Shown here piece after piece: positions 1-21,179 of a DNA stretch of 64,000 nt (position 1 is its first letter; the number at the start of each line of letters is the position of its first letter). The notes under the pieces were generated by a model. That model was not told the origin of the DNA and ran no database searches. It worked only from the letters and a program-made list of their open reading frames with translations. Made by a program: the position numbers and the translations under genes. Origin of the DNA: Actinomycetota bacterium (GTDB lineage Bacteria > Actinomycetota > Acidimicrobiia > Acidimicrobiales > Iamiaceae); assembly GCA_019639075.1 (NCBI GenBank), contig JAHBSO010000005.1:1-64000 (forward strand), in the 5' to 3' direction.

Positions 1-3
1 CCG

Positions 4-1455
4 CTAGATCCTCCACTTCTCCTGGACCCGACCCGGGTCGAACCACCTAGTTCCGGGCTGCGCCGGGAGCACCACCACGGACTCCAGGAAGCGGCCGATG
101 ATGGCGCGCCGCTCGTCCAAGTTCATGTTGACCCAAGCGGTTCCCAGCTCTGATGGAGCGATGCCGAAGTCGACCGGGACGGGGAGGTCCGCCAGAGCCG
201 ACGTCAGCCTTCCGCGCTCGGCGTCGAGTACCTCGCGTGCGGCCTTCCAGTCGGCTGACGACAGACCACCAGCGGCCCAGGTTCCGGCGAGCTCGGCCGA
301 CCGGGATTCGAGCGCTGCGAGGTCGGCGACGATCTGCTCCCGATCATCGGTTCCACCCTTCGCGAGTGCGGCCAGGAAGTCGGGTTGTGCCAGCTTGTCG
401 AGGAGGAGCTCGGAGACGTAGTTCTCGAGGTCGGCGGCCAAGATCCCGATGCCGGCGCAGCCGCCACGCTCACGAGGGGGACAGAGGTAGGAGGGTTGCC
501 GTCCACCAGCGCGAGACCTTCGTTGCTGAGCGACCAGCGCGGCACCGCATCGGCCACATCGGGCGACACCGCCGGTCAGTAGGTACCGACGACCGGACCG
601 CTGCCGACGTCGGGAGGATCGGTGGTACGTCGTGCCGTCGGGTCGAGACACGTTCACGGGACCGTCCAGAACGGCGCACACCTGACGCCACATCGACACC
701 GGGAGGATCGGCGTCCAGGTGCCTTCACCGACGACCTCGCCGCGGTGCACGCGCAGGCCGGCGAGGGTGGGGCGGGTGACTGTGGAGCGGACCGTCGTCG
801 CGGCCCAGCGGCCACCGCGGGCAGTAGGGACACCGCGCTCGGAGAGGTCGGCGGCGATGCGTGTGAGCGACCAGCCGGCGAGGACTCGGTCCGCCATCTC
901 GCGGATGACGTCGGCCTCGGCCTCGTTGACGATGAGCACCTTCCTGCCGTTGTCGTCGGTGGAGCGGTCGTACCCGTAGGACGGTCCGCCAGGCGGACGT
1001 CCCTCGGCGGCGAGGGTGTCGAGTCGCTCGACCACGCGAGCGCGTAGCCGCTCTACTTCCTCGGCGTCGACGGCGGCCAGGATTCGACCGACGAGGCGGG
1101 AGCCGCGGACAGGGATCGGCGACCCGCGGTAGGCGTGGACCTCCTCGATACCGGCGAGCGAGAGGGTGACGAGCGCCTCCTCCCACTCCGCCGGTTGGCG
1201 CGTGAACCTCGACTGCTCGGCGACGACCACGCCGTCGACCTCACCGCGGCGGACGGCGTCGAGGAGAGCGTGGTAACCGGGTCGGTGGGTCCCCGGATCG
1301 GCGGCGGAAAGGTCGTTGTCGGCGTAGTGGACGACGGTGGCGTCGGGCCACGTCTTCGCGGCGTACGCGGTTGCCTTCTTCCGCTGCTGCTCGGTCCCTT
1401 CGGCTCGGCCGTCGGCGTCTCGGCTGATCCGTGCGTAGGTGGCAATCGTGACCAT
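4..1455 (-). CDS. Large serine recombinase (site-specific integrase)
   Basis: Site-specific integrase of the large serine recombinase family, which moves phages and integrative elements by a phosphoserine mechanism. About 483 residues, a normal length. The N-terminal catalytic domain (about 1-140) opens with YARIS, containing the expected catalytic serine and arginine, followed by the conserved region ending QSRFTR. A recombinase domain follows (about 150-265), then a zinc ribbon with four cysteines (about residues 300, 303, 325 and 333) and a helical C-terminal part. I chose the ATG at 1455; a TTG three codons upstream is possible. Its 5' end lies 13 bases from the stop of a truncated cpaF fragment on the same strand, so it is the first gene inside an inserted element that continues beyond position 1. 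It may be read from the pilus operon promoter. Confidence 0.93.
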   Translation of the reverse strand: MVTIATYARISRDADGRAEGTEQQRKKATAYAAKTWPDATVVHYADNDLSAADPGTHRPGYHALLDAVRRGEVDGVVVAEQSRFTRQPAEWEEALVTLSLAGIEEVHAYRGSPIPVRGSRLVGRILAAVDAEEVERLRARVVERLDTLAAEGRPPGGPSYGYDRSTDDNGRKVLIVNEAEADVIREMADRVLAGWSLTRIAADLSERGVPTARGGRWAATTVRSTVTRPTLAGLRVHRGEVVGEGTWTPILPVSMWRQVCAVLDGPVNVSRPDGTTYHRSSRRRQRSGRRYLLTGGVARCGRCGAALVAQQRRSRAGGRQPSYLCPPRERGGCAGIGILAADLENYVSELLLDKLAQPDFLAALAKGGTDDREQIVADLAALESRSAELAGTWAAGGLSSADWKAAREVLDAERGRLTSALADLPVPVDFGIAPSELGTAWVNMNLDERRAIIGRFLESVVVLPAQPGTRWFDPGRVQEKWRI

Positions 1456-1463
1456 GACCGACA

Positions 1464-1474
1464 AGGTACTACCT
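1464..1474. other. Candidate attachment-site junction with short palindrome
   Basis: AGGTACTACCT is an inverted repeat of five-base arms around one base. It lies exactly between the recombinase start and the point where cpaF homology ends (about 1475-1480). Large serine integrases recombine at short sites with inverted arms next to the integrase gene, so this is a candidate half of attL or attR. The other end of the element is outside the window, so the core cannot be defined. Confidence 0.4.
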
Positions 1475-1768
1475 AAACAAGACCTCAGTCGGGCCGTTGA
1501 TCATGATCTCCCACACGTCGTCGTCGGCGAGGAGGGGAGCGAGCGGGCCGTAGCCGGTGAGGTTGCGCAGGGCCCGGTCGACGATCCGGTCGGGCTCGGC
1601 GAGGTCGAACGCGCGGATCCCGCGCTTGTGGTCGACGGACCACTGCTCGACCGTCTCGCGCACCAGCCCGGCCAGCGCGTCCGGGTCGTCGTCGGCGTCG
1701 AGCGCGAGCTCGCGGGCGCGGGTCTGCACGATCCGCTCGATCTCCTCGAGGGGCGACGGCTCGGTCAC
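1469..1768 (-). pseudogene. cpaF: 5' fragment of cpaF/tadA pilus secretion ATPase, split by the integrase element
   Basis: N-terminal fragment (99 codons) of a CpaF/TadA-type hexameric ATPase that powers Flp/Tad pilus assembly. The end of the fragment carries the family hallmark YGPLAPLLADDD followed by EIMINGP. Normal proteins continue for another 300 or more residues with the Walker motifs; here the frame runs into LFR and a TAG stop at the mobile-element junction. The GTG start at 1768 overlaps the stop of the upstream tadZ-like gene by four bases (GTGA), so it was translationally coupled to it. The 3' part should lie at the other end of the inserted element, to the left of the window. Function would be restored only if the element excises. 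Confidence 0.85.
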
Positions 1769-3099
1769 GATCCGGCCTCCGCGTCGGGCAGCTCCGTGTC
1801 GGACCAGTGGCCGAGCTCGCCGGGCCGGATCGGGACGGGATCGGTCGCTTCGCTCGCGGGCTCGTCCCTGGCCCCGAGGCGGTCGAGCAGCTCGAGCACG
1901 GCCCGGCCGGGAGGATCGGCGACCGCGGACGGGAAGCGTCCGAGGTCCCGGTGCACCGCCTCGATCCCGCGGCGCTCGGGCACGTACACCGGACCGACGT
2001 GCGGGTCGGGACGATCGGCCGCGCCGGCGAGGTCGGCGACGACCCGGGTGATCTCGCTGCGGGCCCGGGCCGTGCGGGGCGCCCGGTTGACCACGACGAG
2101 GATGCGCTCGCCGGGTACGCCGAAGGTCCGGAGCTCGTCGAGCAGGCCGACGACGCCGTGGATGCCGGTGATCGTGGGCGTGGCGACGGCGACGACCACG
2201 TCGGCCGACGCGACGACCGTCCTGGCCATGAGGTTGCGATCCTGGAGGTCGAAGGATCCCGTCTCGGCCTCGCCCTCGAGGTCGTCGTCGACGTCGGCGA
2301 CGAGGATGCGCGCCGAGCGGCGGAGCCCGTCGAGCGCGGCCTCGAACGCCCTCGGCCGGACCGACGCCCAGTCCCGCGGCTTGCGGAGGCCCAGCAGGAG
2401 TCGGTAGCGGCGGGGGGCGACGTCGAAGCACGTGGCCCGCACCTGCTCCGGCGTCGGCCGACCCGTGCGGTGGGCCTCCACCAGCTCCTGGACCCCGGGG
2501 ACGACGTCCCGTGCGTCGTGCAGCAGCGCCTGGTGGGCCCGCCGGCACAGGTCGGCGAGGAGCGCGTCCCCGCCGTGGCGAGGATCGTCGGCCAGCCGCT
2601 GGGTCAGCGCGGCGGCGACGGTGGAGCCACCGACCCCCGGACGGCCGGTGACCGCGACGAGCCGGCCCCGCCAGGCCGGGAGGACGTGGAGGCCGGACGG
2701 CCCCGGAGGCTCGGGGGCGTCGTGGAGCGGGTCGATCGGGCGGGCGTGCTCGACCAGCACCCCGAGGAGCCCGGCGCGGTCGAACCCTTCGGGCAGGGTG
2801 GCGACCGCGCCCAGCGCCTCCCAGTCGCGCCCGTCACCGGCCGTGGGGACCACGACCACCGCGATGCCCGCCGCGGCCAGACCGGCGAGCAGGTCCCGGT
2901 CGACCGCGGGCAACCGACCGTCGACGAGGGCGGCGGAGAACGTGCGCCCGCCGGCGGCCCGGGCCCGGACCTCGTCGGCGCCGACGCACTTGACGTACTC
3001 GACCGGGATCGATCCCATGGTCGACCACCGGGACACCTCGGTCGACCACTCCGAGCGGACGTGGGCGAAGCCGAGGACGACGTAGCGGTCGTCGGTCAC
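1765..3099 (-). CDS. CpaE/TadZ-like pilus-localising ATPase
   Basis: About 444 residues: an N-terminal receiver-like region (about 1-125) and a C-terminal MinD/ParA-type ATPase domain. The P-loop at about 151-160 reads TGRPGVGGST, a deviant Walker A lacking the usual lysine. TadZ/CpaE proteins place the Flp pilus machine in the cell, and several are poor ATPases. The GTG start at 3099 overlaps the preceding SAF gene by four bases, and the 3' end overlaps the cpaF fragment in the same way. A generic ParA-like ATPase is the alternative, but the flanking cpaB-like and cpaF genes make the pilus role likely. Confidence 0.8.
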   Translation of the reverse strand: MTDDRYVVLGFAHVRSEWSTEVSRWSTMGSIPVEYVKCVGADEVRARAAGGRTFSAALVDGRLPAVDRDLLAGLAAAGIAVVVVPTAGDGRDWEALGAVATLPEGFDRAGLLGVLVEHARPIDPLHDAPEPPGPSGLHVLPAWRGRLVAVTGRPGVGGSTVAAALTQRLADDPRHGGDALLADLCRRAHQALLHDARDVVPGVQELVEAHRTGRPTPEQVRATCFDVAPRRYRLLLGLRKPRDWASVRPRAFEAALDGLRRSARILVADVDDDLEGEAETGSFDLQDRNLMARTVVASADVVVAVATPTITGIHGVVGLLDELRTFGVPGERILVVVNRAPRTARARSEITRVVADLAGAADRPDPHVGPVYVPERRGIEAVHRDLGRFPSAVADPPGRAVLELLDRLGARDEPASEATDPVPIRPGELGHWSDTELPDAEAGS

Positions 3100-3797
3100 C
3101 GGTCGCCCCCGTCCTCGTCGTCTCCGGGCGCGTCGTCGACCGGGCGGTTGCGGCGCACGACGGTGACGTCGGCCGACCGGATCGCCGACACCGCGTCGGC
3201 CACCGTCGCCGGGTCGTCGCCGGCCACCGTGAGGGTCTGGGTGCCGATCCCGCCGCCGAGGCCACCGTCGTCGCCGTCGTCGACGTGGAGCACGGTGACG
3301 TCGACCAGCACCCGCTCGGTCCCGTCGTCGTCGGTCGCGTAGACGTCGATGCGGTCGCCGGTGCCGAGGGTGCCGGCGACGGCCCACGCCGGGTCGATCG
3401 AGAACGAGAGCTCGAGGGCGGCCGAGCTGCGCTGGTCGACGACGACCGACGACGACTGCACGAGCTCGCCGGGCCCGAGCGGACCGCGGGTGACGGCGCC
3501 GACGAGGTCGCTCGGGTCCCCGAACACCTTCGACCGCAGGCGGTGGGGGAGGTCGGCCTCGGCGAGGGCGAGGTCGTCGGCCGACAGCTCGACCCCGGGG
3601 GCGACGGGGCGGACGGCGACGACGTAGGTCTGTGCCTCGGTCCCGCGGTCGCCGGTGGCGGCCACCCACGTGCCCATGGCCGCGACGGCCACGAGCAGGC
3701 CGCCGAGCGCGGCCCGGCTGCTGGGCAGGCCACGGGGCGGTCCGAGGGTCCGGGTGGCCGGCGGTCGGGCATCTGGCGGGGTGGGGGGCGCGGGCAC
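3096..3797 (-). CDS. SAF-domain Flp pilus assembly protein (CpaB/RcpC-like)
   Basis: About 233 residues with a proline-rich cytoplasmic N-terminus, one membrane helix (about residues 25-47) and an extracytoplasmic SAF domain containing a PVAPGVELSADDLALAEADL segment, as in CpaB/RcpC proteins that help assemble the Flp pilus channel. I chose the GTG at 3797 because AGGAG lies six bases upstream; longer in-frame extensions look like non-coding reading of the promoter region. It is the first gene of a leftward operon (cpaB-like, tadZ-like, cpaF) and is divergent from the small HTH gene at 4076. Confidence 0.8.
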   Translation of the reverse strand: MPAPPTPPDARPPATRTLGPPRGLPSSRAALGGLLVAVAAMGTWVAATGDRGTEAQTYVVAVRPVAPGVELSADDLALAEADLPHRLRSKVFGDPSDLVGAVTRGPLGPGELVQSSSVVVDQRSSAALELSFSIDPAWAVAGTLGTGDRIDVYATDDDGTERVLVDVTVLHVDDGDDGGLGGGIGTQTLTVAGDDPATVADAVSAIRSADVTVVRRNRPVDDAPGDDEDGGDR

Positions 3798-4075
3798 GGA
3801 TGCTCCTGGTATCTGGGTCGCGTGTCGTGTGCGCAGCGGAAACCGTGGGAAACGCCATGAAAGGGACGTGCGCCCGGGGGTGCCGGGTGGGTGAGGGCGC
3901 GGCGTGCCGCCTGCATCGCCGAGGTCCGCCGGTTGTGCTGCCCGGGCAGTATGGACCCCCGAGCCGGCCGCCAAACCTCCGATTTCGGACGGGTGGTGGC
4001 CGGGTCGCGGCGGTGCCGCCGTCGGAATGTGGTCCAGCGCCCATGAAAAAGCGTGAGGTACTAGGCTCCGCAACC
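3798..4075. promoter_or_regulatory. Divergent intergenic region between pilus operon and HTH gene
   Basis: This 278-base gap separates the leftward pilus operon from the rightward HTH gene and must hold both promoters. The stretch at about 4042-4070 is relatively AT-rich and precedes the HTH start. I see no clear consensus boxes or operator and no convincing coding frame. Confidence 0.35.
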
Positions 4076-4306
4076 ATGGCCACCCCGATCACCTGGCTCA
4101 GCACCGCTGACGCCGCGAAGTACCTCGGCATCACGCCGAGGACGCTCTACCGCTTCATCGACGAAGGGCACATCCCGGGCTACCGCTTCGGCCGGGTCAT
4201 CCGCCTCAAGCAGGACGACGTCGACTCGTTCATCGAGAACAGCCGCATCACCCCGGGCACGCTCGACCACCTCTACCCCGAGGTCGTCGGCGACACCCGC
4301 GCCTGA
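4076..4306 (+). CDS. Excisionase-family helix-turn-helix DNA-binding protein
   Basis: A 76-residue protein consisting almost entirely of a MerR-like winged HTH of the excisionase (HTH_17) type: [20 protein letters not shown] followed by the wing region [24 protein letters not shown] (split here for length: [19 protein letters not shown]). Small proteins of this kind are common transcription factors in Actinobacteria, including BldC-like regulators. It is divergent from the pilus operon, so it could regulate it; that is inference. The ATG at 4076 starts the domain cleanly. Its distance from the integrase and its chromosomal setting argue against it being the element's own excisionase. Confidence 0.75.
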
Positions 4307-8679: not shown

Positions 8680-9309
8680 GTGGCCACCACGATGCAGCCC
8701 TCGCTGTTCGACGCCCGATCCGACGTGCCGGTCCTGGGTCCCCTCGCCGACCGGGTCCGGCGGCACGAGCTGACCGACGGCGCGTGGGTCGACGTCCGAC
8801 CCGGCTGGATGTCCGGTTCCGTCGGTCTCTTCGAGCGGCTCCGCGACGACGTGCCGTGGCGCGCCGAGCGTCGGCCCATGTACGACCGCGTCGTCGACGT
8901 GCCCCGGCTGGTCTCGACCTACCACGAGCGCGACGCCTGGCCCGATCCGCTGCTCGGCGCGGCACGCGACGCGCTCGACGAGCAGTACCGGGCCGAGCTC
9001 CCCGAGGGGTTCGCCACGGCGGGGCTCGCGCTCTACCGGGACGGGTCCGACTCGGTGGCCTGGCACGGCGACCGCATCGGCAAGGGCCGGTCGCGCGACA
9101 CGCTCGTGGCCATCGTGTCGCTCGGCGACGTCCGCACGCTGTGCCTGCGGCCCCGGGGTGGCGGGCGGTCCCTGCGGTTCGCGCTGGCGTCCGGCGACCT
9201 CCTCGTCATGGGCGGCTCGTGCCAGCGCACCTGGGAGCACGCCGTACCCAAGGTGCGATCGGCCGGCCCGCGGATGAGCGTGCAGTTCCGCCCCGCGGGC
9301 GTGTGGTGA
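8680..9309 (+). CDS. alkB: AlkB-like 2-oxoglutarate/Fe(II)-dependent dioxygenase
   Basis: About 209 residues, AlkB family of oxidative DNA or RNA demethylases. The iron ligands are visible as the HGD of WHGDR (about residue 129) and the histidine of WEHAVPK, and the 2-oxoglutarate arginine in RMSVQFR near the C-terminus. The substrate loop region RRPMYDRVVDVPRL matches bacterial AlkB relatives. The GTG at 8680 has AGGG eight bases upstream; GTG 8671 and ATG 8692 are alternatives. It stands about 50 bases after era. Confidence 0.88.
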   Translation: MATTMQPSLFDARSDVPVLGPLADRVRRHELTDGAWVDVRPGWMSGSVGLFERLRDDVPWRAERRPMYDRVVDVPRLVSTYHERDAWPDPLLGAARDALDEQYRAELPEGFATAGLALYRDGSDSVAWHGDRIGKGRSRDTLVAIVSLGDVRTLCLRPRGGGRSLRFALASGDLLVMGGSCQRTWEHAVPKVRSAGPRMSVQFRPAGVW

Positions 9310-9318
9310 GCGGCCCCG

Positions 9319-11208
9319 TCAGGCCGTGATCTCGGCGAGGAACGCCTCGACCTCGGCCCGGTCCTTGGTGCGCCGGAACGGCGGCAGCGCGTCGAGGAGC
9401 ACCCACCGGTAGCTGCGGGCCTTGGCCAGGCGGGGATCGAGGACGGCCACGACACCGCGGTCCGACGCGCTGCGGATCAGTCGCCCCACGCCCTGGGCCA
9501 GCATCATCGAGGTGCGGGGCAGGTCGATCAGGCGGAACGCGTCGGCCTTGGCCCGCTCGCGCCTGGCCTGCAGCAGCGGCTCGTCGGGGCGGGGGAAGGG
9601 CAGTCGGTCGATGGTCACGAGCGACAGGGTGCGCCCGGGCACGTCGATGCCCTGCCAGAAGCCCATGGTGGCGAACAACGACGTGGCCTCGTCGGCCGAG
9701 AACTGCTCGACCAGCGCGGGCTTGGGGAGGTCGCGCTGGCCGAGGACCGGCGTGTCGATCCGGGCCCGCACGGCCTCCAGCGCGGCGTCCATCGCCCGGT
9801 ACGACGTGAACAGCGACAGCGTCCGGCCCCCGGCGGCAGAGATCAGCGCGACCAGCTCGTCGTGCACCGCGGGGTCGAAGGTCGGCTGGCGGGGATCGGG
9901 CAGGTGGGTGGCGCAGTAGAGGAGCCCGTGGTGCTCGTAGTCGAACGGGCTGCCGACATCGATGCGGTCGTGGTCCTCCGCGGCGATCCCGAGCTGGTCG
10001 GCCAGGCCGTCGGGCAGGGTGGCGCTGGTGAGGACGGTCGGGCGCCGGTCCCACAGGCCCTGGCGAAGGACGTCGGTGACGTCGATCGGCGCGACCCGGA
10101 GACGGGGGTTGCCGGACGGTCCCTCGACCCACGCGACCATCGACTCGGGGACCGAGATCGCCGCGGCGACGTCGACCTGGAGGTGGCCGTTCAGCTGGAC
10201 GGCCCGGCTCTTGCGGGCGCCCACGTCGTCGCCGGCGTCGTCGGGGATCACCCGCAGCCCGTCGGCCACGCGATCCAGTCGCGCCCGGATGAGGGTGAGC
10301 GCGTCGACGAGGTCGGCCGGCGGGGCGCCCCGCAGCCGGCGGTCGACGTGCTCGGCGAGGGTGGCCGACAGCAGCGAGCCCGACGTCTCCAGGTCGTCGA
10401 CGACGGCGGGGTCCTCGAGGATGGACCGCACCGAGCGGGCCAGGTTCTGGAACCGGCCGGCCGACAGCTCGAAGCCACAGGTGTCCGAGACGATGTCCTC
10501 CAGCTGGTGCGCCTCGTCGACGATCACCAGGTCGTGCTCGGGGAGGATCGCGCCGTCGGTGGCCACGTCGAGGCCGAGCAGGTGCAGGTTCACCACGACG
10601 ACCTCGGCGTCGCCGGCCTTCCGGCGGGCGGCCTCGGCGAAGCACGTGTCGCCCATGGGGCAGCGGCGGGCGCCCGGGCACTCCTGGGCCGACACGCTGA
10701 TCGCGGCCCACGTGGCCGGGGACGGCTCGGCGGGCAGCTCGGCCCGGTCGCCGGTCTCCGACGTCGCCGCCCACAGCTTCAGGGTGGCCAGCTCGGCCGG
10801 CGATGCCCGTTCGGCCAACCCGTCGAGGGCGAGCTGGCCGGCGCCGGACAGCTCGTCGATCCGTTGGCGGCAGACGTAGTTCGACCGCCCCTTCAGCACG
10901 GCGAAGTCGAACGGCTCGCCCAGGTGTTCCTGGAGGAACGGGAGGTCCTTGGTGGCGAGCTGGTCCTGGAGCGCCTTGGTGGCGGTGGCGACGACGGTCC
11001 GCCGACCCGACAGCAGCGCCGGCACCAGGTAGGCGATGGTCTTGCCGGTGCCGGTTCCGGCCTGCACGACGAGGTGGCGCTTGCGGTCGATCGCGTCGGC
11101 GACCGCCTCGGCCATCTGCTGCTGGCCGGGCCGGTCCTCGGCGCCGCGGAGCTCGGCGGTGACCCGTTGCAGGGCGCCCGCGGCCCGCCGGGCTGCGGTG
11201 GTGGTCAC
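9319..11208 (-). CDS. DinG/YoaA-like Fe-S superfamily 2 DNA helicase
   Basis: About 629 residues, XPD-like helicase. Motif I is QAGTGTGKT, motif II is DEAH, and motif VI is in the QGVGRLIR segment. Four cysteines in the Fe-S region (one in CRQR, then CPGARRCPMGDTC) match the 4Fe-4S pattern of the family. Such enzymes unwind DNA during repair or R-loop removal. The GTG start at 11208 overlaps the BrkB-family stop by four bases, so the two are coupled. A much longer in-frame extension upstream has no helicase features and reads antisense through the neighbouring genes. Confidence 0.88.
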   Translation of the reverse strand: MTTTAARRAAGALQRVTAELRGAEDRPGQQQMAEAVADAIDRKRHLVVQAGTGTGKTIAYLVPALLSGRRTVVATATKALQDQLATKDLPFLQEHLGEPFDFAVLKGRSNYVCRQRIDELSGAGQLALDGLAERASPAELATLKLWAATSETGDRAELPAEPSPATWAAISVSAQECPGARRCPMGDTCFAEAARRKAGDAEVVVVNLHLLGLDVATDGAILPEHDLVIVDEAHQLEDIVSDTCGFELSAGRFQNLARSVRSILEDPAVVDDLETSGSLLSATLAEHVDRRLRGAPPADLVDALTLIRARLDRVADGLRVIPDDAGDDVGARKSRAVQLNGHLQVDVAAAISVPESMVAWVEGPSGNPRLRVAPIDVTDVLRQGLWDRRPTVLTSATLPDGLADQLGIAAEDHDRIDVGSPFDYEHHGLLYCATHLPDPRQPTFDPAVHDELVALISAAGGRTLSLFTSYRAMDAALEAVRARIDTPVLGQRDLPKPALVEQFSADEATSLFATMGFWQGIDVPGRTLSLVTIDRLPFPRPDEPLLQARRERAKADAFRLIDLPRTSMMLAQGVGRLIRSASDRGVVAVLDPRLAKARSYRWVLLDALPPFRRTKDRAEVEAFLAEITA

Positions 11209-16523: not shown

Positions 16524-16655
16524 GGGTCGGTCCGGGAGGGAGTATCCCTCGCAGTCGCAACGTCAACACGGCCGCTCCGGCGGCCCGGGGCGGCCGGCTC
16601 CCCATGAGGAGCGGAGAGACTCCCGGCTGACCGATCCCGACTCAGCCGGAGACCC
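16524..16655 (+). ncRNA. yybP-ykoY manganese riboswitch
   Basis: Leader of the terC-like gene. The closing stem P1 is formed by GGGTC (16524-16528) and TCCGG (16531-16535) pairing with CCGGA (16646-16650) and GACCC (16651-16655). The conserved GGGAGTA follows the 5' strand (16538-16544), an AGTCGCAACGTCAACA stretch matches the family's conserved AGUCGUCAAC-like segment, and the 3' end has the typical GAGACC. Aptamers of this family bind Mn2+ and control Mn exporters and TerC-type proteins. A possible -10 box TATGCT lies at 16518-16523. The expression platform overlaps the ribosome binding site. Confidence 0.72.
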
Positions 16656-16657
16656 CG

Positions 16658-17737
16658 TTGCCCACCCTGTCCACGACCCTGTTGGCCGCATCCGAGAGCC
16701 ACTTCGTCAACCTCGACATCCACATCTGGGAGTGGGCGGCGCTCGCGGCGTTCATCACGGTGCTGCTGGTCACCGACCTGCTACTCGTGCACCGCAAGCC
16801 GCACGACATCCAGTTCAAGGAGGCGGCGATCGAGTCCGCCGTCTGGATCTCGATCGGCCTGTCGTTCAGCGCCGTCATCTACTGGATCGGCTCGTCGTCG
16901 GGCATCGTCGACGGCGTCCACGGCCAGGACCTCGGCTCGAAGGCGGTCACCGAGTACCTGTCGGGCTTCCTGCTCGAGAAGTCGCTGTCGGTCGACAACG
17001 TCTTCATCTGGGCGGTGATCTTCACCTACTTCGCGGTGCCGAAGAAGTACCAGTTCCGGGTGCTCTTCTGGGGCATCTTCGGCGCCCTGGTGCTGCGGGC
17101 GATCTTCATCTTCGCCGGCTCGGCGCTGATCGAGCGCTTCACGGTCACCCTCGCCGTCTTCGGCATCATCCTCCTCTACACCGCCTACAAGCTGGCGTTC
17201 CAGGAGGACGACCACCAGGTCGACCCGGAGACGTCGGTTGTGCTCCGGCTGGTGAGACGGGTCGTCCCGTCGACCGACAAGCTCGACGGCCAGAAGCTGT
17301 TCACCCACGTCAACGGCAAGCGGCTCGCCACCCCGCTGTTCGCGGTGCTGGTGATGGTCGAGTCCACCGACGTGGTGTTCGCGGTCGACTCGGTGCCGGC
17401 GATCTTCGGCGTCTCCCGGGAGCCGTTCATCGTGTTCTCGTCGAACGCGTTCGCCATCCTCGGCCTGCGGGCCCTGTACTTCCTCCTCGGGGGCATGCAG
17501 GACAAGTTCCGCTACCTCAACTACGGCCTGGGCGCCATCCTCGCCTGGGTCGGCGTGAAGATGCTGCTCACCTTCTCGGCCGCCCAGTTCGAGTGGCCGT
17601 CGGCCGGGTTCCACCTGCCGACCTGGCTGTCCCTCGGGGTCATCGTCCTGATCCTCACGATCACGATCGTGGCGTCGCTGCAGGCCGACAAGCGCGATCC
17701 GCAGCACCACGACACCGAGGGGGCCGTCGGCCCCTGA
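16658..17737 (+). CDS. TerC-family membrane protein (probable metal homeostasis)
   Basis: About 359 residues, TerC/Alx family with seven to nine membrane helices. Hallmarks are the EKSLSVDNVFIWAVIF segment and the late ESTDVVFAVDSVPAIFGVS segment, both carrying acidic residues inside membrane regions. Family members are linked to manganese export and to metalation of secreted proteins. The TTG at 16658 has GGAG six bases upstream, inside the riboswitch stem; a TTG at 16682 lacks a binding site. Control by the Mn riboswitch fits this role. Confidence 0.88.
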   Translation: MPTLSTTLLAASESHFVNLDIHIWEWAALAAFITVLLVTDLLLVHRKPHDIQFKEAAIESAVWISIGLSFSAVIYWIGSSSGIVDGVHGQDLGSKAVTEYLSGFLLEKSLSVDNVFIWAVIFTYFAVPKKYQFRVLFWGIFGALVLRAIFIFAGSALIERFTVTLAVFGIILLYTAYKLAFQEDDHQVDPETSVVLRLVRRVVPSTDKLDGQKLFTHVNGKRLATPLFAVLVMVESTDVVFAVDSVPAIFGVSREPFIVFSSNAFAILGLRALYFLLGGMQDKFRYLNYGLGAILAWVGVKMLLTFSAAQFEWPSAGFHLPTWLSLGVIVLILTITIVASLQADKRDPQHHDTEGAVGP

Positions 17738-17780
17738 CCCCGGGAGGGGACCGGGCGGGGCGCTGGTACCTTGCCCCTCC

Positions 17781-19568
17781 ATGGGCATCGTCGACGAGGA
17801 CGTCGCCAAGGTGCGAGAGACGGCGGACATCGTCGCCGTCATCTCCGCGCACACGCAGCTGCGTGGCGGTGGCCAGAACTGGACCGGGCTCTGCCCGTTC
17901 CACGGTGAGAAGACGCCCTCGTTCTCGGTCAACCAGGTCAAGGGCGTCTACTACTGCTTCGGCTGCCAGGCGAAGGGCGACGTGATCAGCTTCGTCCGCG
18001 AGATCGAGCACCTGGACTTCCAGACCGCGGTCGAGTCCCTCGCCGCGAAGTTCGGCATCGTCCTCCGCTACACCGACAAGAACGAGGGCGAGCGCAGCGA
18101 CGCCCGCCGCAAGCTCCGCGAGGCGCTGAGCGCGGCGGTCGACTGGTACCACGAGCGCCTGTTGCACGCCCCCGACGCCGGTGCGGCCCGTCGGTACCTG
18201 CGCGACCGCGGCCTCGACGGCGACACGGTCCGCAGGTACCGGATCGGCTGGGCGCCCGACGACTGGGACCAGCTCGTGCGCTCGCTGAAGATCTCCCCGA
18301 AGACCCTCCGCGACGCCGGCCTCGGCCGCCAGAGCGCCCGGGGCGGCACCAACGACTTCTTCCGCAACCGGGTCCTGTTCCCGATCTTCGACGCCGGCGG
18401 TCAGCCCCTCGGCTTCGGCGGCCGCATCCTCCCGGGAGCCGCGCCGCGGCGGGACGGGCGACCGCAGGCCAAGTACCAGAACACCCCCGAGACGTCGCTC
18501 TACCGCAAGAGCAAGGTGCTCTACGGGCTCAACTGGGCGAAGGACGAAGCAGTCCGCACCAACGAGATCATCGTGTGCGAGGGCTACACCGACGTCATCG
18601 GCTTCGCCCACGTCGGCCTCGACCGCGCCGTCGCCACCTGCGGCACCGCCCTCACCGACGACCACGTCAACACGCTCAAGCGCTTCGCCCCCCGGCTCGT
18701 GCTGGCCTTCGACCCCGACGCCGCGGGCCAGGCCGCCGCCGAACGGGTCTACGAGTGGGAGAAGAAGCACGAGATCGAGGTCGCGGTGGCCGACCTGCCC
18801 TCCGGCGACGACCCGGCCGACCTCTCCCGCAGCGACCCCGACCGGCTGCGGGCCGCGATCTCCGGCGCGGTGCCGTTCCTCGGCTTCCGGGTCGAGCGCA
18901 TCCTGCGGGCCGCCGACCTGTCCACCCCCGAGGCCAGGGCCCGGGCCGCGGAGAAGGCGCTCGACGCGATCGCGGAGCACCCGAGCGAGTTCGTGCGCGA
19001 CCCGTACGTCGTCGACGTGGCCACCCGCTGCCGGCTCGACCCCGACCGGCTCCGGGCCGCGGCGGGCAGCGCCGGCGGACGGGTCCGGGTGGCCACCCGA
19101 CCGGCCCCGGTCGTGCACCGCCGCACCGAGACCGCGGCGACCGAGGCGCTGCGGCTGGCGATCGCCGAGCCGGCGAAGGTGCTGCCGCTGCTCGACGACG
19201 CGCTCTTCGACCAGCCGCAGGACCGCGAGGTGTTCCGGGCGCTGCGCGACGCGGACGGCGACCTGCACCGGGCCACCGACGCGGCCGACCCGTTCGTGGC
19301 GGAGCAGCTCACCCGGCTGGCCGTCGAACCGTCGGCCGCCGACCCCGAGGAGGTGCGCCGCATGCTCCTGCGAGACCGGGCGCGACGAGCGCTCGCCGAC
19401 ATCCAGCGGGACGCCCTGACCTCGGACGACTTCGCCGGGTTCGCGGCCGTGATCGGGTGGCTCAAGGGCGAGATCGAGGCCATCGGCCCCGACGCCCTCC
19501 CCGACGGGCCCCGGGAATCGGAATTGCTAACCTGGCTCTCCACTCGAGTGGAGGTGCGCAATGAATGA
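17781..19568 (+). CDS. dnaG: DNA primase
   Basis: Makes RNA primers for chromosome replication. 595 residues. The N-terminal zinc finger has CPFH and YYCFGC; the TOPRIM core shows [10 protein letters not shown] and DPDAAGQAA; and a C-terminal helicase-interaction domain occupies about 430-595. Start ATG 17781. The last bases overlap the sigma factor start (ATGAATGA), the dnaG-sigA arrangement common in many bacteria. Confidence 0.96.
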
Positions 19569-20956: not shown

Positions 20957-21032
20957 TCGGAGGTAGCTCAGCTGGCAGAGCAGCTGACTGTTAATCAGCG
21001 GGTCGTGGGTTCGAGCCCCACCCTCCGAGCCA
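20957..21032 (+). tRNA. tRNA-Asn(GTT)
   Basis: Acceptor stem TCGGAGG pairs with CCTCCGA; the D arm, anticodon stem-loop CTGACTGTTAATCAG (anticodon 20990-20992) and T arm GTGGGTTCGAGCCCCAC are complete. Discriminator G at 21029, and CCA is encoded at 21030-21032. Confidence 0.95.
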
Positions 21033-21036
21033 CCAG

Positions 21037-21062
21037 CGAGCCGGTCCGCACGGACCGGCTCG
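21037..21062 (+). terminator. Hairpin terminator after tRNA-Asn
   Basis: CGAGCCGGTCC pairs with GGACCGGCTCG around a four-base loop, five bases after the tRNA. No T-run. Confidence 0.7.
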
Positions 21063-21106
21063 TGTCGCGTCCCGACCCGGTCGACGAGGTCTGCCAACAT
21101 GGCGGC

Positions 21107-21179
21107 GGGGCGGTAGCTCAATGGTCAGAGCAGGGCACTCATAATGCCTCGGTCGCGGGTTCGATCCCCGCCCGCCCCA
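21107..21179 (+). tRNA. tRNA with CAT anticodon, probably elongator tRNA-Met
   Basis: Acceptor GGGGCGG pairs with CCGCCCC, T arm GCGGGTTCGATCCCCGC, anticodon CAT at 21140-21142, discriminator A at 21179. CCA is not encoded. It lacks the three G-C pairs of initiator tRNA next to the anticodon loop. A tRNA-Ile2 read as CAT and modified with lysidine cannot be excluded by eye. Confidence 0.88.

Follow-up and report, generated by a model that had tools for sequence, protein, structure and literature searches.

A probable phage or satellite attachment site within the Tad pilus gene cpaF, and related integrases at DNA-uptake genes of Actinobacteria

Our analysis of a 64,000-base stretch of DNA (the window; bases 1-64000 of contig C24 of G000, a 2.74-Mb MAG of 28 contigs that is 79% complete) indicates that cpaF, the gene for the motor ATPase of the Tad/Flp pilus, has a serine-integrase element inserted inside it, and we have very little doubt of this insertion. 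The reading that we favour, and consider likely as a whole, is that the window holds the attL of a phage or satellite in cpaF and that the integrase comes from lineages that strike DNA-uptake genes time and again, plausibly so that transformation cannot cure the elements. The window would begin inside an integrated phage or phage satellite, whose integrase recombined into conserved cpaF codons (VWEIMINxP-D/E), and CpaF would be cut after ~94 codons, ahead of its ATPase domain. The carrier's loss of DNA uptake would protect the element from deletion by transformation, and the element may gain further if the lost pilus is one that other phages use.

A truncated cpaF frame beside an integrase gene

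The minus-strand frame at 1768-1469 comprises 99 codons (product MTEPSPLEEIE...DDDVWEIMINGPTEVLFR*, stop codon at 1471-1469) and aligns with relatives' CpaF as far as the NGP-TE codons, the alignment stopping at residue 97/99 in nearly all strong matches (94 in G040, 98 in G017). CpaF orthologs from the same genus are 66-72% identical to this frame (E 4e-37 to 3e-44), and a match to the CpaF/TadA N-terminus at E <= 1e-3 was found in 38 of 41 relatives, a count that takes in paralogs and the window's own genome. Because seven of the eleven same-genus genomes carry an ortholog that is uninterrupted across the break point (L009-L015), a chance origin of the truncated frame is excluded; the remaining four (G006, G007, G009 and G010) have paralog-level CpaF matches only.

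As judged by the match to relatives' CpaF, the host-derived 5′ part of cpaF/tadA occupies 1486..1768 on the minus strand (~94 codons). Collinearity with G040, a relative described below, suggests that host sequence ends at ~1486 and that the final codons (~1485-1469) are probably element DNA. The truncated CpaF would lack the ATPase domain and hence be inactive. Upstream, on the same strand and with a 4-base overlap, lies a gene (1765..3102) without a Pfam match that we take to encode a CpaE/TadZ-like protein, given its position and its likeness to the neighbouring gene in G040. A further upstream gene of the interrupted tad operon (3096..3800, minus strand) encodes a CpaB/RcpC-like protein with a SAF domain (PF08666, E 1e-9; its RcpC match, E 3e-4, is under the Pfam cut-off). 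Since other Tad-type ATPases are encoded on contigs C4 and C28, pili may persist in G000.

The gene beside the truncated frame (4..1464, minus strand; 486 aa from TTG 1464 or 483 aa from ATG 1455) encodes a large serine integrase with Pfam Resolvase (E 2e-17), Recombinase (E 3e-15) and zinc-ribbon (Zn_ribbon_recom, E 1e-7) matches, and alignment places the conserved catalytic serine in the motif YARISRD. This is the domain composition of a large serine recombinase of the phage integrase type, and the protein is predicted to catalyse attP x attB recombination. The original prediction held that the cpaF frame keeps its N-terminus and stops 13 bases before an integrase gene in the same direction, and this was confirmed (frame 1768-1469, integrase ATG 1455). 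The contig ends 3 bases past the integrase stop, so that the window shows one element end only. Among the matches listed, the integrase has no close counterpart in the phage records (355 matches, all below 60% identity), the best of those listed from the phage database being 27-30% identical; comparison with viral collections likewise gave distant relatives only.

The integrase gene adjoins its attachment site where element and host DNA meet, lying 13 bases from the end of the cpaF frame beside an attL collinear with that of G040. The element-derived half of attL, from the crossover to the integrase start (1456..1485, minus strand, including the stop codon of the cpaF frame), was delimited by a gapless alignment with the G040 attL, in which 20 of 34 bases are identical between the crossover GA and the integrase ATG; without the ATG, identity is 17 of 31, a value equalled by 9 of 20000 shuffles. 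We infer that the crossover in the window falls at ~1486/1485, one codon from that in G040. The putative crossover dinucleotide GA (1485..1486, minus strand), placed by matching its position to G040, where attL and attR share GACG, is uncertain by ~3-4 bases.

A search of G000 (79% complete) for the 3′ part of cpaF, with Pfam T2SSE and the 329-aa 3′ part of the G003 protein as queries, returned paralogs only. No contig of G000 overlaps window positions 1-160, no further element contig was found there, and a T2SSF search for downstream tad genes gave matches only on C24, C4 and C28, none assigned to the cut cpaF locus. Because the contig ends inside the element and the MAG is 79% complete, the absence of the 3′ part, which the original prediction had named as grounds for its refutation, is uninformative; the rest of the element, together with its 3′ cpaF part, would lie in unassembled sequence.

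Relatives in which the other end of the element is seen

G040, which belongs to the same taxonomic order but to another family, has the same arrangement and both element ends. Its cpaF 5′ part (C181:9696-9977) is directly followed by an integrase gene whose product is 39% identical to the window integrase; its 3′ part (C139:4-984) is 78% identical to G003 CpaF, and the DNA ahead of that part is the far end of a phage. The attL reads ..AACGCCCCCGACG|GTACG.. and the attR ..GATGGCG|GACGCCATC.., and joining the two cpaF parts at GACG yields an open frame, ..VNAPDAIFVKRH.., with no stop. The first contig carries genes for the integrase, a DnaB-like helicase, the small and large terminase, the portal and the major head protein, and the second those for tape measure, tail and endolysin. 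By this gene content, which covers packaging, head, tail and lysis between the two att sites, the G040 element is a siphophage prophage of ~35 kb over two contigs. Two loci were obtained from the viral collections with a CpaF query; L100 was dropped as an independent case, being 100% identical to G040:C139 over 10,984 bases.

In G412, from the same phylum, a single 422-kb contig carries both halves of cpaF, the 5′ part at 383.5 kb (minus) and the 3′ part at 345.7-346.5 kb. The ~36 kb between them include TerL, portal and tape measure genes, an integrase adjoins the 3′ part, and the two sides share the core CAAGTTCACCGG. Largely possessing the prophage gene set, this element too is classed as a prophage from its predicted genes. 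The proposal that a serine-integrase element lies inside cpaF thus gains support from G040, where the 3′ half was found and rejoins in frame, and from G412, where both halves share a contig. The element in the window would be a phage or satellite of the same kind as those of its relatives. One could suspect an assembly chimera, in which an integrase fragment was misjoined to cpaF at the contig edge, since the join lies 1.5 kb from the contig end and the far end is missing; but the join has the layout and spacing of the G040 attL and many assemblies of independent origin show this arrangement too, which makes an artefact highly improbable.

G403 (IMG/VR record 3300031454_000254; IMGVR_UViG_3300031454_000254) has two related elements in one cpaF. 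Element 1 (~10 kb) abuts cpaF from residue 92 and carries MCP, portal and TerL genes (PHROGs). Element 2, at residue 249-250, is bounded by the direct repeat CTCCCGAACGT and contains a stretch of 82% identity that covers its portal- and TerL-like genes. Past element 2 (20986-21123), cpaF runs to ~residue 295 and is then broken again by unrelated sequence.

For a wider set, an alignment of four integrases of this kind was scanned over one genome per species (84,980 species), and the best 80 of 126 relatives were kept; these 80 loci hold a few near-duplicates (L142 and L143 have identical matches, and L189 and L190 are one contig). At 14 of the 80 loci, no more than 120 bp separate the integrase from a cpaF match. 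In L183 a cpaF fragment stands beside the integrase with an earlier part of cpaF 8.6 kb away, probably two elements in one cpaF as judged from the arrangement. L122, L129, L146, L150 and L177 show the two cpaF parts together, separated by 8-11 kb, and the flanks rejoin CpaF in frame in all four cases tried (G040, G403 element 2, L146 and L177). Numbered as in G003, the break points group around residues 92-97, 160, 215-227, 250, 304-311 and 328-333, of which 215-227 presumably falls just after Walker A and 304-311 in what we take to be the His-box region.

Some of these elements are small. Those in cpaF of Phycicoccus (L146) and Actinotalea (L177), at 8-9 kb, carry integrase and WhiB-like genes, with replication-initiation and terminase small-subunit genes in addition in L146; no head or tail genes were found among the tested proteins of either. 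The Terrabacter element in cpaF (L150) includes, at 16543-18051, a Schlafen AlbA_2-like gene (E 6e-4, below the cut-off), a possible cargo or defence gene.

Other cpaF cuts and irregular sites were kept apart. The cuts in G313, G318 and G068 lie at other places, and those in G063 and G317 lie at the same codons with no integrase; none was counted as being of this kind. Also left out as insertion cases were G398, G165 and G074, whose contigs break at the core, and G124, with one extra base near it. G063 has four cpaF 5′ fragments (2302-2591, 9132-9360 and 14751-15035 in L093 (C6); 5313-5585 in L092 (C15)), two of them belonging to ~1.2-kb blocks that share 97% identity, run as far as the att core AACGCCCC and differ beyond it; a search revealed neither a family integrase beside the fragments nor a 3′ part of the ortholog. 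In L094 (G317:C88, ~7856) and L093 (~15035), cpaF breaks off at the NAPD codons and continues into a tail (NAPDLLFPGQVL..) that we take from its motifs to be LysM-like. The cut in G317 is followed by a cluster, presumably of the HIT-PhoH-Era type on the same kind of evidence, that in the window stands at the opposite side of the tad genes. The original prediction was to be refuted by close relatives with the same short frame and no adjacent integrase: none was seen within the genus (7 of 11 intact, 4 of 11 without an ortholog), and elsewhere in the order G317 and one G063 copy have such a frame, with the LysM-like tail. In G398, two contigs (L095/L096; C170 and C262) overlap by 141 bases at their ends, up to the cpaF core AACGCTCCCGA, so that the assembly forks at the att site. 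The contigs L087/L097 (G165:C66, C29) and L088 (G074:C6) each have a terminus no more than a few bases from the core, which mixed populations or repeats at the site could cause. In L098 (G124:C110, ~118-164), cpaF is intact save for the extra base near the att core (GCCATCCTTCGTC), which shifts the frame.

Could the insertion instead be a switch, with the element excising to restore cpaF when pili are needed and the integrase being read from the tad operon? Genes on the one strand overlap or sit 13 bases apart, a spacing that allows read-through, and no terminator-like site was found between them; the consensus scan for sigma-70 promoters and terminators, which found none of either in 1-4300, says little in a window of 72% GC and is uninformative on this point. 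The insertion is reversible in principle, since relatives' flanks rejoin in frame, and the G398 contigs that overlap by 141 bases up to the core form a fork there. However, one branch of that fork runs into non-phage genes, and a fork need not mean excision; moreover, excision by serine integrases usually needs a directionality factor. Such active lysogeny therefore appears quite unlikely to us.

Integration targets beyond cpaF

Of the 80 loci kept as the best of 126, 31 have a DNA-uptake gene next to the integrase, namely cpaF/tadA in 15, comM in 10, comEC in 4 and tadC in 2 (28 loci within 200 bp, plus L137 at 261 bp, L183 and L120). The original prediction, confined to cpaF, did not extend to this wider pattern. 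The tadC cases are L117 and L136 (T2SSF). In nine loci comM was placed beside the integrase by tblastn (L138, L140, L142, L143, L157, L173, L176, L179 and L186), with a ChlI or Mg_chelatase domain in all four comM loci run against Pfam, and in L120 by motif. Both comEC halves flank the element in L137 (PF03772, E 2e-53); in L181 and L184 (the latter without a Pfam match) comEC is cut just before an HHGS motif that we take to mark its metallo-beta-lactamase part. L141 was assigned to comEC by adjacency only, with DUF4131 below the cut-off: the gene lies beside the integrase, its cut not being established. The weak, far CpaF match of L141 was not counted as a cpaF case, nor were L123 (only a GFDLA-like stretch) and L170 (an FtsK match below the Pfam cut-off) counted.

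The other 49 of these best 80 integrases lie in other genes or have no assigned target. Their neighbours include DUF222 genes (L115, L165 and L160), an FMN dehydrogenase (L153), a sodium/hydrogen exchanger (L144) and an amino-acid permease (L182), and the L158 integrase abuts a DUF3151 gene. The DUF222 neighbours are HNH-type genes, presumably akin to the phiRv1/REP13E12 target of which they remind us.

As a control, 30 loci were drawn solely by the Pfam Recombinase model from 60 genomes of the phylum, and 29 remained once the window's own was removed. Two of the 29 lie at DNA-uptake genes: L210, which is G412 (cpaF), and L197 (tadC), whose site is near those of L117 and L136 and whose integrase is more distant. 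Even this is far above expectation for a handful of genes among ~3000. The difference between 31 of 80 and 2 of 29 (Fisher, p = 9e-4) is biased towards the family set, since the comM, comEC and tadC queries were drawn from the 80 loci, the control flanks are short (~1.5 kb) and some control integrases come from the same family. On a tree of 90 integrases (4 of 94, short or identical, were left out), the cpaF label needs 8 changes (7 counting L183), compared with a shuffle mean of 16.6, and none of 500 shuffles is as low. Targeting of cpaF is clustered on the tree, yet has been reached by several lineages. The G000 integrase forms a long branch (1.49) of unsure placement.

These distributions bear on whether the insertion is ordinary, cpaF being a conserved, non-essential landing site, favoured because serine integrases depend on a sequence common to many hosts, and the loss of the pilus bringing no benefit. 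Many related integrases do lie in other genes, the DUF222 genes of L115, L165 and L160 among them, and the cpaF break points fall in conserved codons, including what we presume to be the Walker A and His-box regions. Against this, 31 of the best 80 loci lie in four functionally linked genes, the 8 changes on the tree mean that several lineages arrived at cpaF, and the more distant integrase of L197 strikes tadC at a like site; a benefit-free insertion strikes us as less likely than not.

Because integrases of the window's and neighbouring lineages repeatedly land in cpaF/tadA, tadC, comEC and comM, we regard loss of DNA uptake as the most likely advantage. The insertion might alternatively exclude superinfection by removing a pilus that competing phages use as a receptor. 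Pili do serve as phage receptors, and the targets include the pilus motor and tadC, but comEC and comM would go unexplained, and we think this unlikely. With a pilus motor, a pilus platform, a DNA channel and ComM as targets, a block of DNA uptake fits better than loss of a receptor, which explains the pilus genes only. Uptake machinery is plausible in this order, given that 35 of 41 relatives have comEC; a search of G000 (79% complete) did not reveal the gene. Whether blocking DNA uptake is the purpose of the insertion is to our minds evenly balanced. Micrococcus luteus requires tad genes and comEC for transformation (PMC4322843). Transformation can delete integrated elements, and insertion has been discussed as a means of avoiding such curing (PMC4774983); mobile elements are known to break comM, comYC, comFA and comK (PMC4774983, PMC12637031).

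Relation to known elements

A broader generalisation, which we offer tentatively and rate at a little below an even chance, is that across Actinobacteria several related large-serine-integrase lineages, carried by both prophages and small satellites, have specialised on uptake genes (the Tad ATPase at no fewer than five places, tadC, comEC and comM). Much of the phylum would then transform by way of the Tad pilus, and the genes of that pilus would be where hosts that rid themselves of elements by transformation and elements that prevent it chiefly contend. If true, the idea that elements disarm transformation would extend from a few model species to a phylum in which transformation has hardly been studied, the Tad/Flp pilus would be the DNA-uptake pilus of that phylum, and integrase target choice would serve as evidence, repeatedly broken genes flagging machinery that threatens elements. 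The carriers found include cultured isolates, e.g. Actinotalea soli, Arthrobacter, Terrabacter and Geodermatophilus.

Elements in competence genes are already known; for serine-integrase elements or prophages in cpaF/tadA we found no report in the open PMC literature, a scope outside which subscription journals and preprints fall. An attB inside a coding gene with the integrase gene adjoining is general for serine-integrase phages. The temperate phages of actinobacteria (e.g. of Streptomyces and Mycobacterium) likewise use a large serine integrase, the best listed matches being 27-30% identical, and to our knowledge actinobacterial serine-integrase phages use other target genes. Section 9 of PMC10023795, in which actinobacterial prophage sites are mapped, names only tRNA genes.

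The comK prophages of Listeria offer a parallel in which a competence gene is split by a serine-integrase prophage and active lysogeny results; here host, gene and phage are unrelated, and excision-dependent regulation would be hypothetical. The 8-9 kb elements of L146 and L177 (integrase and WhiB-like genes, no head or tail gene found) resemble phage satellites or PICIs, whereas the G040 and G412 elements are classed by gene content as prophages and G403 element 1 carries MCP, portal and TerL genes. Closest are the elements described by Croucher et al. 2016 (PMC4774983), which are also integrated inside DNA-uptake genes (comYC, comM, comFA and comK), at orthologous codons, and for which the proposed benefit is avoidance of deletion by transformation. 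The words 'tad' and 'Actinobacteria' do not occur in the main text of that paper. In contrast to the elements described there, those found here have actinobacterial hosts, the pilus is of the Tad/Flp type, cpaF/tadA, tadC and comEC are among the targets, and cpaF is struck by large serine integrases at several separate codons.
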